A stretch of DNA of 60,367 nt, from contig QHSO01000026.1 in assembly GCA_003220475.1 (NCBI GenBank), positions 1 to 60,367 on the forward strand, in the 5' to 3' direction. The notes beneath the pieces were generated by a model, which worked only from the letters and a program-made list of their open reading frames with translations, was not told the origin of the DNA and did not search any database. The stretch is from Candidatus Rokuibacteriota bacterium. GTDB taxonomy: Bacteria > Methylomirabilota > Methylomirabilia > Rokubacteriales > CSP1-6. Position 1 is the stretch's first letter. Each line of letters starts with the position of its first letter. Of this stretch, positions 12,323 to 60,113 are shown piece by piece. Position numbers and translations under genes: made by a program.

Positions 12323-12512
12323 CTATCGGCCGAGAAACTTGGCCACGCTCCGCGCGATGCCGTCCGGATCGAAGCCGCCGAGTGATTCTCCACGGTCACC
12401 ACGTGGCCGGTCTTGGCGGCCGACCCGGTTGGCCCGACCCCGCGTGCGCCAGCATCCGAATGATCTGGACACGGCAGGCGCGCGCGATCGCCGGCAGTCG
12501 GGGGTCAGCCAC
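12323..12512 (-). pseudogene. collapsed remnant of transketolase gene(s)
   Basis: Three short pieces of transketolase lie back to back. From a GTG at 12512 the reading RACRVQIIRMLAHAGSGQPG matches the start of transketolase (N-terminal thiamine-diphosphate subunit, usual form ...ILRMLHEAGSGHPGG). It runs into KTGHVVTVENHS, which is the beginning of the C-terminal transketolase domain (VVTVENHS). After a frame change comes LGGFDPDGIARSVAKFLGR and a stop at 12323, the usual end of that domain. Some 1.5 kb of coding sequence that should separate these parts is absent. The GTG overlaps the stop of the upstream pmbA-like gene, so it was the next cistron of that operon. Whether this is a true deletion or a bad join in the assembly cannot be told here. 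Confidence 0.6.
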
Positions 12513-13913
12513 TGGAGTCCTCGACGTGGGCGATGGCGTCGATGCGGACGTCGCGGACCGAATCATATAAGAATCCGCGGTGACCGTACAGGTGAAATCG
12601 CCCGCGCGCAGTCCGTTGATCGGGTACGTGTACCAGATGCGGCCGACGTAGAGCCCGTTGCCGACGCGGCGGAACAGCTCGTCACGATCGAGGGGCTCGG
12701 CGCCCTCGACGACGACGTTGGTGGCCGCGATCGACGGTCGGCTGGCGAACTGGCGTCCACCGCCGGCGCCGAAGCGAAAGCCGTTGCGCGGCACCAGTGC
12801 GGCCGCCCGTACGGCGTCGTCGGCCCCGCCGAGCTTGTCGGCGCGCTGCGGGTCGCGCATCAGCCGCTCGGTCTCGTACCAGCACGACAGGCAGCCGGTG
12901 AGCACACCCTCGCGGATGAGATCGGTGCGGCCCGTCGGCAGGCCCTCGCACGTGATGCCCTTGGAGCCCATCATCCCGGGCATCGCGCCGTGGTCGTAGA
13001 TCGACAGCGCGGACGACGCCACGCGCCGGCCGAGGCGGCCGAGAAACGGCGACGCCGAGGCGTAGAACGTCTCCGCGTTGCAGGCCGGCAGGACGAGGTC
13101 ATTCAGGATGTCGGCCACCGGCTGGCGGCCGAAGACGACCGTGTAACGGCCCGAGGGCACGCGCGTGCCACCGAGGGCGGCGATAGCCGCCCGCGCTGCC
13201 TCACCGCCCGCTTCGTCGCTGAAGTCGTCGAGGCGCGTGCCCGTCGACCATCCCGAGCCCTTGGCCGCGTGGGCCTCGACCATGGACGTCACGAACGACG
13301 TGATCAGCGTCGTCTCGTCCGTTTGGACGTGCGGCATCGCCGTCGACGCGATGGCCATGCGCTCCTGGATCATCGTCACGTCGCCGCTGATGATCAGCCC
13401 CAGCCGGCGCAGCGCCTCTTCGCCGTCGGCCAGATCGGCCAGACGCGACGACGCCAGGAAGGTCCGGAGCGCGCCACCGATGATCGTCCATCCTGCCTCG
13501 ACGAGGCGCTCGTCGCTCACGCGCATGAGCGCGGGATCGTGATAGTCGCTCAGCGTCCGCGGCGCGGCCAGCGGGCGCGGCAGCGAGACGAAGTCCGGGT
13601 CCGCCACCGCGGCGCGCCGCGCTTTGTCGAACGCGCGCTCGATGCCGGACACGGAGAGGTCGTTCGGCTCGCTGCCGAAGCCCAATCGCCGGCCGCCGGG
13701 CGCGTCCAGGACGATCTGCAGACCGATGCCGTACGACTCGACCGACTTCGGCTCCTCCACGCCGTTGCAGGGGATGTGCGAGGTGTAGTTCAGGCGCGTG
13801 AGGAGCGCGGCGTTGGCCGAGACGAACGCCTCCACCTCGCTCACGCCCGGCTGGGCGCGCGCCCAGCCCAGCGCCTGCTCCGCTGCGCGGCTCAACTCGC
13901 CGAGATCGCGCAT
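12505..13913 (-). pseudogene. PmbA/TldE-like protein with disrupted C-terminus
   Basis: Second subunit-type member of the TldD/PmbA family, which with TldD forms the heterodimeric protease that processes modified peptides (microcin B17, CcdA, PQQ-like RiPPs). The protein starts MRDLGELSRAAEQALGWARA at 13913, one nt after the UGA-rhodanese stop, and is recognisable up to DFTCTVTADSYMIR near 12558. As expected for PmbA it lacks the HExxxH site of TldD. After that point the frame runs into unrelated sequence to 12396, but another frame gives VRDVRIDAIAHVEDSSG and a stop at 12505, which looks like the real C-terminus. About 50-60 residues between the two are missing. Confidence 0.75.
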
Positions 13914-13914
13914 G

Positions 13915-14337
13915 TCAGTGCTTGGGCGTGTCGCTGATGTTCGTGCCCTCGACCGGGTAACCCTTCGCGTGCCAGCCGGGAAGCCCTTCCTCGAGCACGC
14001 GCTGATTGCGCCAGCCGAGCACGTGGAGGACATTGCTGGCCCCACGGGACAGCGCGTGGGGACACGTTCAGTAGAAGACGACGAGCCCGGTCTTGCGGAT
14101 CTCCGACGCGCGGCGCTCCACGCTACGCAGCGGCATCGAGCGCGCGCCGCGAATGTGCATCTCGACGTAGGCGTCCCAGTTGCGGACGTCGATGATGTCC
14201 GCCTTCTCGCCGCGATCGAGCGCCGCCTTCAGCTCGTCCACCTTGATGAAGTTGACGGGCGCATCGGGCGGCGCGGCCGGGGCCGCGCCGAGCAGCACGA
14301 TCGCGGTGGCGAGCGCCGGCACCATCGCTCGGCGCAC
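13915..14337 (-). CDS. exported rhodanese with selenocysteine at the catalytic loop (UGA at codon 90)
   Basis: Read with UGA as selenocysteine, this is a complete 140-aa rhodanese. A GTG at 14337 with GGAGG seven nt upstream starts a signal peptide (MRRAMVPALATAIVLLGAAP), followed by the CH2A motif IIDVRNWDAYVEMHIRGA. The active-site strand is GLVVFY-U-TCPHALSRGAS (UGA at 14070-14068), and then the normal rhodanese end VLHVLGWRNQRVLEEGLPGW follows, with a stop at 13915. Read conventionally, the protein would end just at the catalytic loop. The UGA replaces the first cysteine of the Y-C-x-C-P motif seen in relatives. A hairpin fitting a bacterial SECIS element begins 6 nt after the UGA. The gene sits between tldD-like and pmbA-like genes, 3 nt and 1 nt apart, so it is expressed with them. 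Sulfur transfer or thiol redox in the periplasm is inferred. Confidence 0.82.
14040..14061 (-). promoter_or_regulatory. putative bacterial SECIS hairpin of the rhodanese gene
   Basis: On the minus strand CCCCACG (14061-14055) pairs perfectly with CGTGGGG (14046-14040), leaving an 8-nt apical loop CGCTGTCC that contains GU. It begins 6 nt after the in-frame UGA, and the loop lies at about the distance seen in E. coli SelB-dependent SECIS elements. Confidence 0.6.
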
Positions 14338-14340
14338 GGC

Positions 14341-15903
14341 TCAGCCTCCGAGCACGCGGGCGCGGCTGCGCATCGTCGGGCCTCCGTTGCCGAGCTTCTT
14401 GCTCTGCATCGGCTGTCCCTTGCCGCAGTTCGGGATGGGATAGAGACGGAAGTCGCGGCCGACCGCGTCGACGTTCATCAGATAGGCGCGCGTGTCCGCG
14501 GCGATGCCTCCGTCGCGGTAGAGTCGCGTGAGCTCGCCGCGCTCGATCGCATAGACCTTGCGCGCGGAGATGCGGAAGTTCTCGCGGCTCTCCGCGATCG
14601 ACGGAATCCGATGGCCGACCATGTAATAACCGCGATCGACGTCGCCGACGATCCGCGCGGGATCGGCGTCGCCGCCGTCGAAGACCGTGTTCGACATCCG
14701 GATCAGCGGTACCAGCGCGGCACTGGTCGCCTTGAAGTGCCCGTTGGGCTCGCCGCCGAACACGGCCGCCGTCTGGCGGCTGTTCATGAAGCCACGGAAG
14801 ATGCCGCGCTCGATGTGGGTCACGCGCCGGGCGGGCGTGCCCTCGTGATCGTAGGCGTAGTGACCGTAGCCCGGAAGCGCGGGGTCCGAGTACGCGGTCA
14901 CCAGCGGAGATGCGATCCGCTGGCCGACCTGATGGGCGTCGAGATCGGCGAGCAGCCACGAGCGGCCGGCATACGCCGTCTCCATCTTGAGCGCGCGGTC
15001 GAGCTCGGCCGGGTGACCGACGATCTCGTGGGAGACGAGGGTGTTGTAGTGCGGATCCGTCACCACGACGACCTCGCGCTCGGAGCTCGGCAGCGGCGGC
15101 GCCGCCGCGAGCTCGGCGGCGTCGTGCGCGAGAGCCAGCGCGAAGTCGCGAAACGGTGGGAAGGCGAGCAGGGGATCGTCGACGCCGCCGGCGATGACCT
15201 CCCAGCCGCGCTGGTGGCCCATGACGTCGTACAGCTCCTGGCTCGTCTCGGCGCCGACGGCGACGACCGAGGCGGCGCCCTGCGTGAGCGCGAACGCCTG
15301 ATCGATCACGGCGCCCTCCGTGGAGGCGAACAGCTCGCGCGTGAGCTGCGTGAGCAGCGGAATCCAGTTGTAGCGCACGCTCGGCTCGGCGGCGGCGATC
15401 GCGCGCGAGACGTCGACCGCGGCCGCGACCATGTCGCCGAGCGGAACGCTGCGCGGATCGATCCGATAGACGGCGGGGACGACGTCGCGGCGGACGTCGA
15501 CCGTGTAGAGTTTCAGCTCGGCCAGCGTCGCGCCCAGCGGCCCGAACTTCTCGCGCGCGGTCGCTTTGTGCTCGGCGTTCGCCATCGCGCGGCGGTACGC
15601 GCGCTCGAGCGCCTCCCGCAGTCGCGCCTCGAGATCCGCGACATCGGCGGCGCCGAGGACGATCCCGAGCCACCCCGGCGCCACGCTCCGATCGCCGGCC
15701 AGCACCCGGACGCCGGCGGTGCACGCGTAGTCGTCGCCCGACGAGCGCTCGGCGCCGTTCTCGGCGATCGCGTGGCGACTCTCGGTGACCTCGAGGCGCA
15801 GGTCGGCATAGGCCAGGTGGGGCAGTCGCCGGCGCGCGTCGGCCAGCAGCGCGGGTACGTTCTCGCGCGCGCGATCGATCAGATCGACGGTGATGGCGGC
15901 CAT
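14341..15903 (-). CDS. TldD-family zinc metalloprotease
   Basis: A 520-aa TldD homologue. The family's zinc-binding HExxxH appears as HEIVGH at residues 292-297 within TLVSHEIVGHPAELDRAL; the downstream GIFRGFMNSRQTA and the TRAYLMNVDAVGRDFR part of the C-terminal barrel are also typical. TldD pairs with PmbA/TldE to form a heterodimeric peptidase for unfolded or modified peptides, and a pmbA-like gene is encoded two cistrons downstream. The selenocysteine-type rhodanese lies between them. It begins 2 nt after the moeA stop, so moeA, this gene, the rhodanese and the pmbA-like gene form one operon. Confidence 0.92.
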   Translation of the reverse strand: MAAITVDLIDRARENVPALLADARRRLPHLAYADLRLEVTESRHAIAENGAERSSGDDYACTAGVRVLAGDRSVAPGWLGIVLGAADVADLEARLREALERAYRRAMANAEHKATAREKFGPLGATLAELKLYTVDVRRDVVPAVYRIDPRSVPLGDMVAAAVDVSRAIAAAEPSVRYNWIPLLTQLTRELFASTEGAVIDQAFALTQGAASVVAVGAETSQELYDVMGHQRGWEVIAGGVDDPLLAFPPFRDFALALAHDAAELAAAPPLPSSEREVVVVTDPHYNTLVSHEIVGHPAELDRALKMETAYAGRSWLLADLDAHQVGQRIASPLVTAYSDPALPGYGHYAYDHEGTPARRVTHIERGIFRGFMNSRQTAAVFGGEPNGHFKATSAALVPLIRMSNTVFDGGDADPARIVGDVDRGYYMVGHRIPSIAESRENFRISARKVYAIERGELTRLYRDGGIAADTRAYLMNVDAVGRDFRLYPIPNCGKGQPMQSKKLGNGGPTMRSRARVLGG

Positions 15904-15905
15904 CG

Positions 15906-17108
15906 TCAGAGCGCTTCGAAGGGCTCGACGGTCACGCGCTCACCGGCCGCGACGTCACCGCGCGCCTCCTCGAGCACGACGAAGCAGTTGCCGGCGACCA
16001 TGGACGAGAGAATGCCCGAGCCCTGCGGCCCCGTCGTGCAGACGTCCCAGTCGCCGTCGCGGAACGCGAGGATGCCGCGCTTGTACTCGGTACGGCCGGT
16101 CTTCTTCCGCATCGGCTCCAGCGCGCGCGCCTGCCACGTCGGCGGAAAGATCCGGCGACGTCCCGCCAGCTTGTAGAGCGCCGGGCGAACGAACAGCATG
16201 AACGACAGCAGCGACGCCACCGGGTTGCCCGGCAGGCCGAAGAACAGCGCGCCGTCGATGTGGCCCACGGCGAACGGGCGGCCGGGCTGCATCGCCACCT
16301 GCCAGAAATCGATGGCCCCGACCTCCTGCAGCACGTCCTTCACGAGGTCGTACACGCCCACCGACACACCGCCGGAGGTGACGACGACGTCGGCGGCGCG
16401 CGCGGCGTCGCGCAGCGCGTCGCGTAGCGTCTCGCGCACGTCGGGAACGATGCCGAGATCGCTCACGTCGCCGCCGCACTGCTCGATCGAGCCGCGCAGC
16501 GTGAAGCGATTGGCGTCGTAGATCTGACCGGGACGCCGCGGCGTGCCGGGCTCGGCCACCTCGTCGCCGGTCGACATCAGCGCGACGCGCGGCCGACGGC
16601 GCACCGACACCTGCCAGGCCCCGAGCGAGGTCATCAGGCCGATCTCCTGCGGCCGCAGCACGGTGCCGGCCTCGATGACCGTCTTCCCCGCGGCGACGTC
16701 CTCGCCGGCACGCCGCACGTTGGCGCCCTTGTCGATGGGGCCGACGCGGACGCGGTCAGCCTCGCGCTGCACGATTTCTTGGGGGTAGACGGTGTCGGCG
16801 CCGGCGGGCATCGGCGCGCCGGTCATGATGCGCAGGGCCTGCCCGGCGCCGAGCGCGCGCTCGAAGACCGCGCCCGCGGCGAGGTCGCCGATCACGACGA
16901 GGTCGCGCGTGGCGCGCGGCGGAATATCGGCGCCGCCCACGGCGTAGCCGTCGACCGCGGAGTTGTCCGCGGGCGGTACGTCGAACGGCGCGGCGAAATC
17001 CTCGCTGAGCACGCGCGCCAGCGCGCGTGTCAGCGGCACCAGCTCGGCCGCGAGCGGCACGCCGATGCGGGCGAGAATCTGCGCTTGCCCGTCGCGCACC
17101 GAGATCAT
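15906..17108 (-). CDS. moeA: molybdopterin molybdenumtransferase MoeA
   Basis: A 400-aa enzyme that inserts molybdate into adenylylated molybdopterin, the last common step of molybdenum cofactor synthesis. Domains run as usual: an N-terminal region with DVPPADNSAVDGYAV, the RIMTGAPMPAGADTVYPQE segment, a central MogA-like domain with TSGGVSVGVYDLVKDVL and GLPGNPVASLL, and a C-terminal beta-barrel. It supports the molybdenum hydroxylases encoded 27 kb away. The ATG at 17108 lacks a ribosome site; a perfect TATAAT ends 7 nt before it, suggesting a leaderless message. It is divergent from the RDD gene. Confidence 0.95.
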   Translation of the reverse strand: MISVRDGQAQILARIGVPLAAELVPLTRALARVLSEDFAAPFDVPPADNSAVDGYAVGGADIPPRATRDLVVIGDLAAGAVFERALGAGQALRIMTGAPMPAGADTVYPQEIVQREADRVRVGPIDKGANVRRAGEDVAAGKTVIEAGTVLRPQEIGLMTSLGAWQVSVRRRPRVALMSTGDEVAEPGTPRRPGQIYDANRFTLRGSIEQCGGDVSDLGIVPDVRETLRDALRDAARAADVVVTSGGVSVGVYDLVKDVLQEVGAIDFWQVAMQPGRPFAVGHIDGALFFGLPGNPVASLLSFMLFVRPALYKLAGRRRIFPPTWQARALEPMRKKTGRTEYKRGILAFRDGDWDVCTTGPQGSGILSSMVAGNCFVVLEEARGDVAAGERVTVEPFEAL

Positions 17109-17126
17109 GCGCGTATTATACGCGCC
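17109..17126. promoter_or_regulatory. palindromic bidirectional -10 region between moeA and the RDD gene
   Basis: The 17-nt sequence GCGCGTATTATACGCGC is a near-perfect palindrome spanning almost the whole 18-nt gap. On the minus strand it offers TATAAT 6 nt before the moeA ATG, and on the plus strand TATTAT 7 nt before the RDD ATG. Neither gene has room for a Shine-Dalgarno site, so both would be leaderless. The palindrome could also be an operator. Confidence 0.55.
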
Positions 17127-17666
17127 ATGAACGGCGCGCCGGGCGACGCGACGCACCCCGCGGGCTTCTGGATCCGGTTCGTCGCCTTCGTCATCGATCT
17201 CGTGGTCATCATCCTCGCGCAGTTCATCCTGAAGATCGTCGCGGTCGCGCGCTTCGGCTCGGGCGGCGCCCCGGGGGCCGTCGGATTCTTCACCTTCGTG
17301 TTCGCCGTCGCGTACCCGACGGTGCTGCACGCGCTCACCGGCCAGACGCTCGGCAAGGTGCTCACGCGCGTGCGCGTCGTCGCGCTGGACGGCGAGGCGT
17401 TGCCGTTCGGCGCGGCCTTGCTGCGCGCCGTCGTGTTCTGGGCCGCGCTGCCGCTCACGCTCGGCATCGGCCACATCGTCGGCGGATTGCGCAAGGACAA
17501 GCGCGCGTTCCACGATCTGATCGCCGGCAGCCGTGCCGAGCGCGTGCCGTATGTGACGCGCGTACGTCGTCTGTCACGCGCGCCGGTGTCGCCGCTCGGC
17601 GCGTCGATGGTGGGGCGCAGCCCGTTGCCACCGACGGCGGAGTCGGATCCGCGCTCGGGCGGGTGA
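17127..17666 (+). CDS. RDD family membrane protein
   Basis: A 179-aa integral membrane protein with three hydrophobic segments. The family pattern is visible: FWIRFVAFVIDLVV with the R..D of the first helix, the LTGQTLGKVLTRVRVV loop, and the C-terminal DKRAFHDLIAGS in place of the usual DxxxxRP.HD. RDD proteins are uncharacterised or act as small transporters (Na+/H+ antiport has been shown for some). The stop overlaps the GTG of the DUF309 gene. Confidence 0.88.
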   Translation: MNGAPGDATHPAGFWIRFVAFVIDLVVIILAQFILKIVAVARFGSGGAPGAVGFFTFVFAVAYPTVLHALTGQTLGKVLTRVRVVALDGEALPFGAALLRAVVFWAALPLTLGIGHIVGGLRKDKRAFHDLIAGSRAERVPYVTRVRRLSRAPVSPLGASMVGRSPLPPTAESDPRSGG

Positions 17667-58317: not shown

Positions 58318-58659
58318 GTGACCGACTGCGTGTTCTGTCGCATCGTCGCCCGCCAGACCGCCGCCGACATCGAGTACGAGGACGATCACGTGCTGGCGTT
58401 CAAGGACATCTACCCGAAGGCCCCCGTGCACATCCTGATCGTGCCCAAGCGCCACATCGCCTCGATCGCGCAACTCAGCGATGGCGATGCCGACCTCATC
58501 GGCCGCTGCGTTCTCGCGGCGCGGCGGCTCGGGGAGACGAAGGGGTTCGCGGAGAAAGGGTACCGGATCAGCGTGAACACCGGACCCGAGGGCGGCCAGG
58601 TCGTGTACCACGTCCACTTCCACTTCACGGCCGGACGCCAGCGCGGCGCCGGTGCCTAG
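58318..58659 (+). CDS. HIT-family (HINT-like) nucleotide hydrolase
   Basis: A 113-aa histidine-triad protein of the HinT branch, hydrolysing purine-nucleoside phosphoramidates. It opens CVFCRIVARQTAADIEYEDD (C-x2-C), has HILIVPKRHIASI and the triad HVHFH near the C-terminus. GTG start with GGGAGG seven nt upstream. Its stop TAG shares CTAG with the stop of the convergent protease-rhodanese gene. Confidence 0.95.
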   Translation: MTDCVFCRIVARQTAADIEYEDDHVLAFKDIYPKAPVHILIVPKRHIASIAQLSDGDADLIGRCVLAARRLGETKGFAEKGYRISVNTGPEGGQVVYHVHFHFTAGRQRGAGA

Positions 58660-60113
58660 GCCTTCGCTTCCAGCGGGAGTCCTGCGTTGGCCCACGATCC
58701 GAGACCGCCCTTAAGGATGCGCACGTCTCGAAATCCGAGCTGTCGTAAGCGCAGCGCCACACGGGCGCTCGTCATCTCGTCGGGTCACGTGCAGTAGGCG
58801 ACGACGGTCCGTGACGGATCGGCGGGCACGGTCGCCGCGCCGTCCGCGAGCGAGTCGAGGGGCAGGTGCAGTGAACGCGGGATCCGCACGGGACTGCGCG
58901 CATAGGCATCGGAGGCGCGGACATCGAGGATGATCGGTGGGTCGGGCCCGTCGACGAGCCGCATGACCTCGGCGGGTGGGATGCGAAATCGGTTGCGCTG
59001 GCGGCGTCGCATGAGGAGCACCGCCCAGCCGGTCGCGCTCACAGCGAGCATTCCGATCGCGACCCAGGTCCACGGCAGCAGGGGCTCGCGCTTGAGACGC
59101 TCGTCGTTCTCCATCGTCACTCGCCGCACGTCCGGCAGCTCGGGTAGCAGTCGGTTCGCCTCTGCCAGCTCCGCCCGGGCACGGCGGTGGTTGCCGGCGA
59201 AGTAATCTCGGAGCCCCGCGTACCACGCCGCGTTGAATCGACTCGGCTCGTCACGCCGAACCGACGTGCCCTCGAGGAACTTCACGACCGCCGCCGCTGG
59301 AATGACGAAGTTGAAGCCCTGCACGATATCGGCTTGCGCGTCCGATGAGAGCGTGACGAACGTCAGCACGCCGACGACCTCGCCGGCGTCGTTCACGGCG
59401 GGTCCGCCGCTGTTGCCCCAGGCCGCGGCGGCGTCGGTCTGGATTACCGGCTGGTTGGCGCGATCCTGTTTGAAGCCCGAGATCGCGCCGCTCGTGATGG
59501 AGGCCTCCATCTTGGCCGACGAGTTCAAGAGCTCGTGGCTCAACACCACGCCGGGAAACCCGATGATGTGCATGCGATCGCCGATCCGCGTCTTTGCGGA
59601 ATCCGCGAGCGCCAGCGTCGGCATGTCGGCCGCCTCGAGCTTGAGCAACGCGAGATCCTGGCCGGACATCGCTTCACCGGCAACGGGCGGGCTGTACTTG
59701 ACGACGCTCGCAGGCAGCCGCACGCCGTTGGCGATCAGCACGGAGATCGACGGCTCGAGCCTGGCGCGGCCCGTGCCGCTGCGATCACCGCAGACCTGTT
59801 TGATCGCCTTCTGCGTTTGCTCCCGAACCAGCCATTCGGGTGGACGATATGCCGGCGAGACGACGTGGCCGTTGGTGATGAGCCAGCCCGAGGACGCGAT
59901 GAACCAGCCGGTGCCCGTTTCGCGGAAGGGCGCGGGCGTCACCGTCGTCTCTGCACCCGCGCCGCAGCGCACCGCGACGTCGCCCGCGACCTCCGAGATC
60001 ACCAGAGCCACGGCGGGTTTCGCGCGGAGCAACGCCTCCTGAAGCGATGGCGACTGAGCCGACGCGAGCGCGGGAGCGAGTACCAACAGCAGCGCACCAA
60101 CGACACTGCGCAC
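58656..60113 (-). CDS. trypsin-like protease with transmembrane helix and C-terminal rhodanese carrying selenocysteine (UGA at codon 443)
   Basis: Read through one UGA, this gives a 485-aa protein. Order: signal peptide (SVVGALLLVLAPALASA) after a GTG at 60113; S1C trypsin domain with ITNGHVVSP (His), SGQDLALLKLE (Asp) and AAWGNSGGPAVN (Ser), all intact; a membrane helix (PWTWVAIGMLAVSATGWAVLL); and a rhodanese domain (IILDVRASDAYARSPVRI). The active-site strand is RTVVAYCT-U-PDEMTSARVAL, the UGA (58787-58785) standing for the second cysteine of Y-C-x-C-P-[DH]-E. The frame then completes the domain (RQLGFRDVRILKGGLGSWAN) to a stop at 58656. A SECIS-like hairpin follows the UGA. Trypsin lies outside; the rhodanese follows the helix, so by the signal-peptide topology it would face the cytoplasm. 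Confidence 0.82.
58753..58769 (-). promoter_or_regulatory. putative bacterial SECIS hairpin of the protease-rhodanese gene
   Basis: AGCGCC (58769-58764) pairs with GGCGCT (58758-58753), loop CGTGT containing GU. The stem starts 15 nt after the UGA at 58787-58785. Confidence 0.55.

Follow-up and report, generated by a model that had tools for sequence, protein, structure and literature searches.

We predict that the gene at positions 13915-14337 on the reverse strand of the window (the whole 60,367-nucleotide stretch of DNA from a soil bacterium, Candidatus Rokuibacteriota, that was analysed) encodes an exported single-domain rhodanese with selenocysteine (Sec) at residue 90. The enzyme would handle persulfide, its synthesis would depend on SelB, tRNA-Sec and an in-frame bSECIS, and its place in an operon would reflect shared expression only. 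We assign this reading a probability of roughly 70%. That the in-frame UGA at codon 90 (14068-14070, reverse strand) is read as selenocysteine is strongly supported by sequence comparison.

The coding sequence starts with GTG and ends with TGA (13917-13915). The earlier note claimed that a full exported rhodanese is recovered only by reading through the internal UGA, and this was borne out: the product is a 140-residue protein in one frame, and the Pfam Rhodanese domain (PF00581) matches across the UGA (residues 33-125, 7.2e-14, 52.5 bits versus 22.2). With the UGA read through, the active-site loop is F-Y-U-T-C-P-H-A-L, so that the codon occupies the catalytic Cys position of an intact rhodanese domain, as had also been claimed. 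The C-P-H-A-L context is invariant in the family alignment, including the Cys two residues after Sec (Cys92, codon at 14062-14064, reverse strand), which makes the pair U-x-C. By inspection, the N terminus (14272-14337, reverse strand) reads as a putative cleavable signal peptide, with RR, a hydrophobic core and APA-A; LLxGAAPAAPPxxPV is conserved in the family alignment, and the complete N termini of family members likewise start with basic residues, followed by hydrophobic ones and mostly by A-P-A-A. The AlphaFold model (pLDDT 87) has the rhodanese-like proteins 3nhv and 2kl3 as its closest solved structures (Foldseek, E ~1e-8). Both sequence and fold match those of rhodanese-like domains, with the active-site loop at a strand end. 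According to the model, the fold is that of an ordinary rhodanese; the oddity lies in the catalytic Sec, followed two positions later by an invariant Cys. Two candidates for a second Sec-rhodanese in the genome were rejected: in C225 the UGA simply ends the gene, and at window 58644-58961 the one frame that was translated contained no rhodanese. An Rfam scan of the window returned a tRNA-Ala as its sole match.

From the fold and the active-site residues we infer a sulfurtransferase acting on thiosulfate or persulfide, and the substrate, reductant, compartment and chemistry proposed here are inferred likewise. SelB and tRNA-Sec would insert Sec90 at the UGA, directed by an in-frame hairpin at 14053-14035, and the protein would act outside the cytoplasm, in the envelope. 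There, Sec90 would accept sulfane sulfur from persulfide, polysulfide or thiosulfate, Cys92 would resolve the Se-S intermediate with sulfide being released or sulfur handed on, and an envelope thiol system would re-reduce the Se-S bond.

The rhodanese gene lies between a tldD-like gene (14341-15903) and a pmbA-like gene (12396-13913), with moeA (15906-17141; PF03453/PF00994/PF03454) 2 nt upstream of tldD, all on the reverse strand. The gaps of 3 and 1 nt reported previously are exact: 3 nt separate the tldD stop from the rhodanese GTG, and 1 nt separates the rhodanese stop from the pmbA ATG. The TldD-like metalloprotease (PF19289, 4.5e-36) has an intact metal site, with HEIVGH at residues 292-297 and Cys493 in C-G-K, and the PmbA/TldE-like subunit has no HExxxH. 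The two thereby show the features of the characterised TldD/TldE (PmbA) protease, namely HExxxH and C-x-K in TldD and a partner lacking HExxxH (PMC5810440), although a rhodanese is not mentioned as part of that protease (PMC5810440). Relative to the same-genus genome G008 (L156), the pmbA of the window is missing about 55 codons near the C terminus and terminates in a different frame (12396-12560, reverse strand), which is either biological or an assembly fault. A second TldD/PmbA-type pair is present elsewhere in the genome, on contig C55.

We then weighed the earlier claim of a working link to the protease, in which the rhodanese would load, strip or protect sulfur on the modified peptide that TldD/PmbA cleaves. 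In its favour, besides the intact TldD metal site, the tldD-rhodanese-pmbA order that was to be looked for in related genomes is indeed conserved, with near-zero spacing, in 36 of the 39 Sec-rhodanese loci across the whole family, usually with moeA upstream (in almost every locus that extends far enough to include that position); one locus is cut by a contig end. Nevertheless, we consider this link unlikely. The putative signal peptide of the rhodanese, together with the lack of any recognisable one, by inspection, at the start of TldD or PmbA, suggests separate compartments, and the pmbA of the window is itself altered. Each side also survives apart. About a dozen genomes among the matches listed, a count based on the pmbA matches and the gaps shown, carry tldD-pmbA without the rhodanese, including outgroups (e.g., G084 and L142) and scattered family members. 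In G022 (L141), the rhodanese domain has been cleanly deleted between tldD and pmbA at a short direct repeat, leaving a remnant in which the signal peptide is joined to the last few rhodanese residues. Conversely, L048 and L049 (two assemblies with identical rhodanese proteins) are without tldD, and the locus L167/L168, where tldD and the greater part of pmbA have been lost, keeps a Sec-rhodanese, with its UGA and hairpin, beside moeA, genes that we named patatin-like and YkgJ-like by eye, and a 71-codon pmbA stub. The L167 and L168 matches agree in position and identity although the two assemblies belong to different genera, which points to a binning fault in one assembly. Furthermore, no peptide-modifying enzyme was recognised among the neighbouring genes inspected. 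A stricter version, in which the Sec-rhodanese is a dedicated TldD/PmbA partner on an exported S- or Se-modified peptide and losses of either side track loss of the peptide, seems to us no less doubtful.

In the TldD tree, the genomes with the rhodanese are scattered across the family, which requires about seven state changes, at least six of which are forced by well-supported branches. This distribution would be explained most simply by a single insertion on the stem and several later losses, while transfer may provide an alternative history. The tldD-pmbA pair is apparently older than the rhodanese insertion, and the three-gene order is old and common but loosely coupled, as both kinds of separation occur. 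The rhodanese gene thus appears to have stayed between the two protease genes during most of the family's history, with no clear dependence on them. In L131, L134 and L136, an enoyl-CoA hydratase-like gene follows tldD in the place of the rhodanese. Among the neighbours of the Sec and Cys relatives from outside the phylum, no common partner was found.

The earlier note had also pointed to molybdenum cofactor, given that moeA is first in the operon. A role in the delivery of this cofactor, or of selenium, fits moeA being the usual upstream neighbour and the weak scores given by MoeB/MoeZ rhodanese domains, but the moeA-tldD pairing occurs equally without the rhodanese, and moeA generally lies upstream of tldD whether the rhodanese is there or not. 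Further, sulfuration of molybdenum cofactor is a cytoplasmic process, whereas the N terminus of the present protein looks, on inspection, like a signal peptide, and a MoeB-type adenylation domain is missing. We therefore regard such a role as very improbable. We prefer an envelope rhodanese that handles persulfide, for which the position in the moeA-tldD-pmbA operon would bring shared expression, not a shared reaction; the long-lived gene order could nevertheless reflect a functional tie.

Several lines of evidence bear on the reading of the UGA. Orthologues with the UGA, all belonging to Candidatus Rokubacteria/Rokuibacteriota, were present in 39 of the 57 genomes of the family (Rokubacteria) and absent from the other families of the phylum, as tallied by hand from the order and phylum surveys. 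All 39 loci have TGA at this codon and none has Cys; a TGC or TGT, named beforehand as the observation that would count against Sec, did not turn up, with TGA being found in independent relatives as well. The Cys/Sec alternation that had been proposed as a check is seen in other phyla, where distant relatives have either UGA (L183 and L185) or Cys (L184, L186, L187 and L188), while the 39 family loci have Sec only. Cys is also found at this codon in the phylum's own remoter relatives (L070, L071 and L111-L113). The recurrence of the UGA with an open frame beyond it in 39 genomes is beyond chance. Against the nearest genome, G008, dN/dS was 0.19 for the codons preceding the UGA and 0.11 for those following it. 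This analysis covered ten pairs. Some close ones gave noisy ratios, as high as 1.26 on 30 codons, and the L033/L034 value before the UGA is meaningless, since the alignment had not been adjusted for a one-residue insertion. The region 3' of the UGA is under purifying selection.

The source genome (4.8 Mb, 329 contigs, 92% complete) carries all four of selA, selB, selC and selD, so that the absence of selB or selC, which would have spoken against Sec, did not occur. SelB (369 bits, above cut-off), SelA (588.9 bits) and tRNA-Sec (69.7 bits) are encoded within 5 kb on contig C124 (11791-16492), and the anticodon of the tRNA is TCA, i.e., tRNA-Sec(UCA), according to ARAGORN. SelD is encoded on C102 (335.5 bits) and is itself a Sec form (L026:1501-2451), with UGA in the motif CAG-U-ASK, at the catalytic position of SelD. 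In addition to the rhodanese, the genome therefore codes for at least one selenoprotein of a familiar type. Across the phylum, SelA was present in 83 of 95 genomes.

The candidate bSECIS is the hairpin GCUGUCCCGUGGGGCCAGC at 14053-14035 (reverse strand), with G-U of the apical loop at 14045-14044. At codons +6 to +11 after the UGA, fourfold-site identity reaches 0.88, compared with 0.53-0.56 elsewhere, and none of the other windows among the 53 is as extreme; as the pairs compared are related by descent, the figure should be read as an effect size and not as a p-value. Within this stretch, Leu is CTG, Gly +9 is GGG and Ser is AGC in 30 of 30 sequences each, and Arg is CGT or CGG and never CGC; outside it, the same genes have mostly GGC for Gly and mostly CGC for Arg. 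The frozen stretch has the consensus UG[G/U]CC-N-G-[G/U]-N-N-GG[C]CA. The published bSECIS model specifies a small apical loop with G followed by G/U (N1-G-[G/U]-N-N2), a spacing of 16-37 nt and a minimum free energy of at most -7.5 kcal/mol (PMC13188914). Here, the UGA-to-loop spacing is 21 nt with a five-base loop (C-G-U-G-G), or 22 nt if the C-G pair is counted as closed, and the energy is -9.8 kcal/mol for a 28-nt piece, with two relatives just short at -7.4. The predicted hairpin fits the model in loop, spacing and energy. It is kept in the Sec relatives outside the phylum, L183 and L185, where the loop is AGUCU and the closing pair changes from C-G to A-U. Covariation is weak, with one pair altered on both sides, and solely when other phyla are included, because the protein sequence keeps the stem nearly constant; we dropped covariation as proof of the hairpin, as there is too little variation.

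The earlier note had described a different element, a perfect 7-bp hairpin after the UGA. This hairpin (CCCCACG/CGTGGGG, 14061-14040) does exist in the window, yet about half of the relatives cannot form two of the seven pairs. We rejected it as the SECIS since its pairing is complete only in a minority of the relatives. It overlaps the hairpin at 14053-14035, which is the better conserved of the two. When 43 nt of the window were folded, the 14061-14040 hairpin was the more stable, so that we based our choice on conservation and the synonymous lock rather than on energy.

As regards the UGA as a true stop, leaving a pseudogene or an 89-residue regulator, the standard code does give a stop codon there. 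However, the UGA and the open downstream frame persist in 39 genomes with the signs of purifying selection and a SECIS footprint, and relatives have Cys at this codon, which makes such a stop most improbable. Reassignment of UGA to an ordinary amino acid, or a sequencing error, for which no supporting point was found, is refuted in practice: UGA ends both the rhodanese gene and tldD in the window and is therefore not generally reassigned in this genome, tRNA-Sec and selAB are present, and the same UGA recurs across independent assemblies. Selenocysteine remains the preferred reading, with the marks of a bacterial selenoprotein apparent at the level of sequence, namely a UGA where homologues have Cys, sel genes in the genome and a predicted bSECIS.

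Five forms of rhodanese selenoprotein have been listed, with the motifs UxxS, UxxG, CxU, UxxG and UxxxxU (PMC13188914). Forms 1, 2 and 4 (UxxS, UxxG and UxxG) have Sec in PF00581, as here, and are set apart from U-x-C-P by their listed motifs alone (PMC13188914). Form 3 (CxU; NF041203, rhodanese_LYCAU) resembles the present protein in being small, with a two-Cys active-loop motif and one Sec (PMC13188914), and NF041203 is its best NCBIfam match (6.3e-13). In that form, however, Sec comes second (C-x-U), whereas here it comes first (U-x-C-P-H), and with 48.5 bits against a cut-off of 115 the present rhodanese is not a member. The TsoB rhodanese/DsbD fusion selenoprotein (NF045694) also has a Sec rhodanese domain with a likely role in envelope redox, but it is a large two-Sec fusion, and the present rhodanese scores just 26.2 bits against 805.

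The rhodaneses of the phylum show all four pair states, i.e., C-x-C, U-x-C (the present gene), C-x-U and U-x-U. The C-x-U rhodaneses (L074, L075, L077, L079, L119 and L122) have YC[T/S]-U, the mirror of U-x-C (e.g., LYCT-U-PNEATSARVA), and where scored, on the partial L077 and L079 sequences, they are near but below the NF041203 cut-off. The double-Sec form U-x-U, encoded as UGA-ACN-UGA, occurs in seven loci (L114-L118, L120 and L121; e.g., L118:3012-3314) from two other families of the phylum; its motif, [FL]Y-U-T-U-P, falls outside the five listed forms. When 35 domains were placed in a tree, sequences sharing a state mostly grouped together, and the deep branches had weak support.

In the literature searched, we found no paper linking TldD/PmbA with a selenoprotein rhodanese, and the U-x-C-P-H form, the tldD-rhodanese-pmbA locus and the double-Sec U-x-U form were absent from the searchable literature. 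According to PMC13188914, which cites it, the groundwater survey of Deng et al. predicted 63 selenoproteins in one Methylomirabilota genome, and the present rhodanese may already be included among them. As the U-x-C pair fits no listed motif, lies below the NF041203 cut-off and may figure in that survey, we treat it as a variant within the known rhodanese selenoproteins, to which U-x-C-P-H adds another form. Gene prediction with the standard code would end the gene at codon 90 throughout the group and so hide the enzyme. Together, C-x-C, U-x-C, C-x-U and U-x-U in one phylum provide a natural series of sulfur and selenium at each position of the active-site pair, with which the role of selenium at the attacking versus the resolving position becomes testable.
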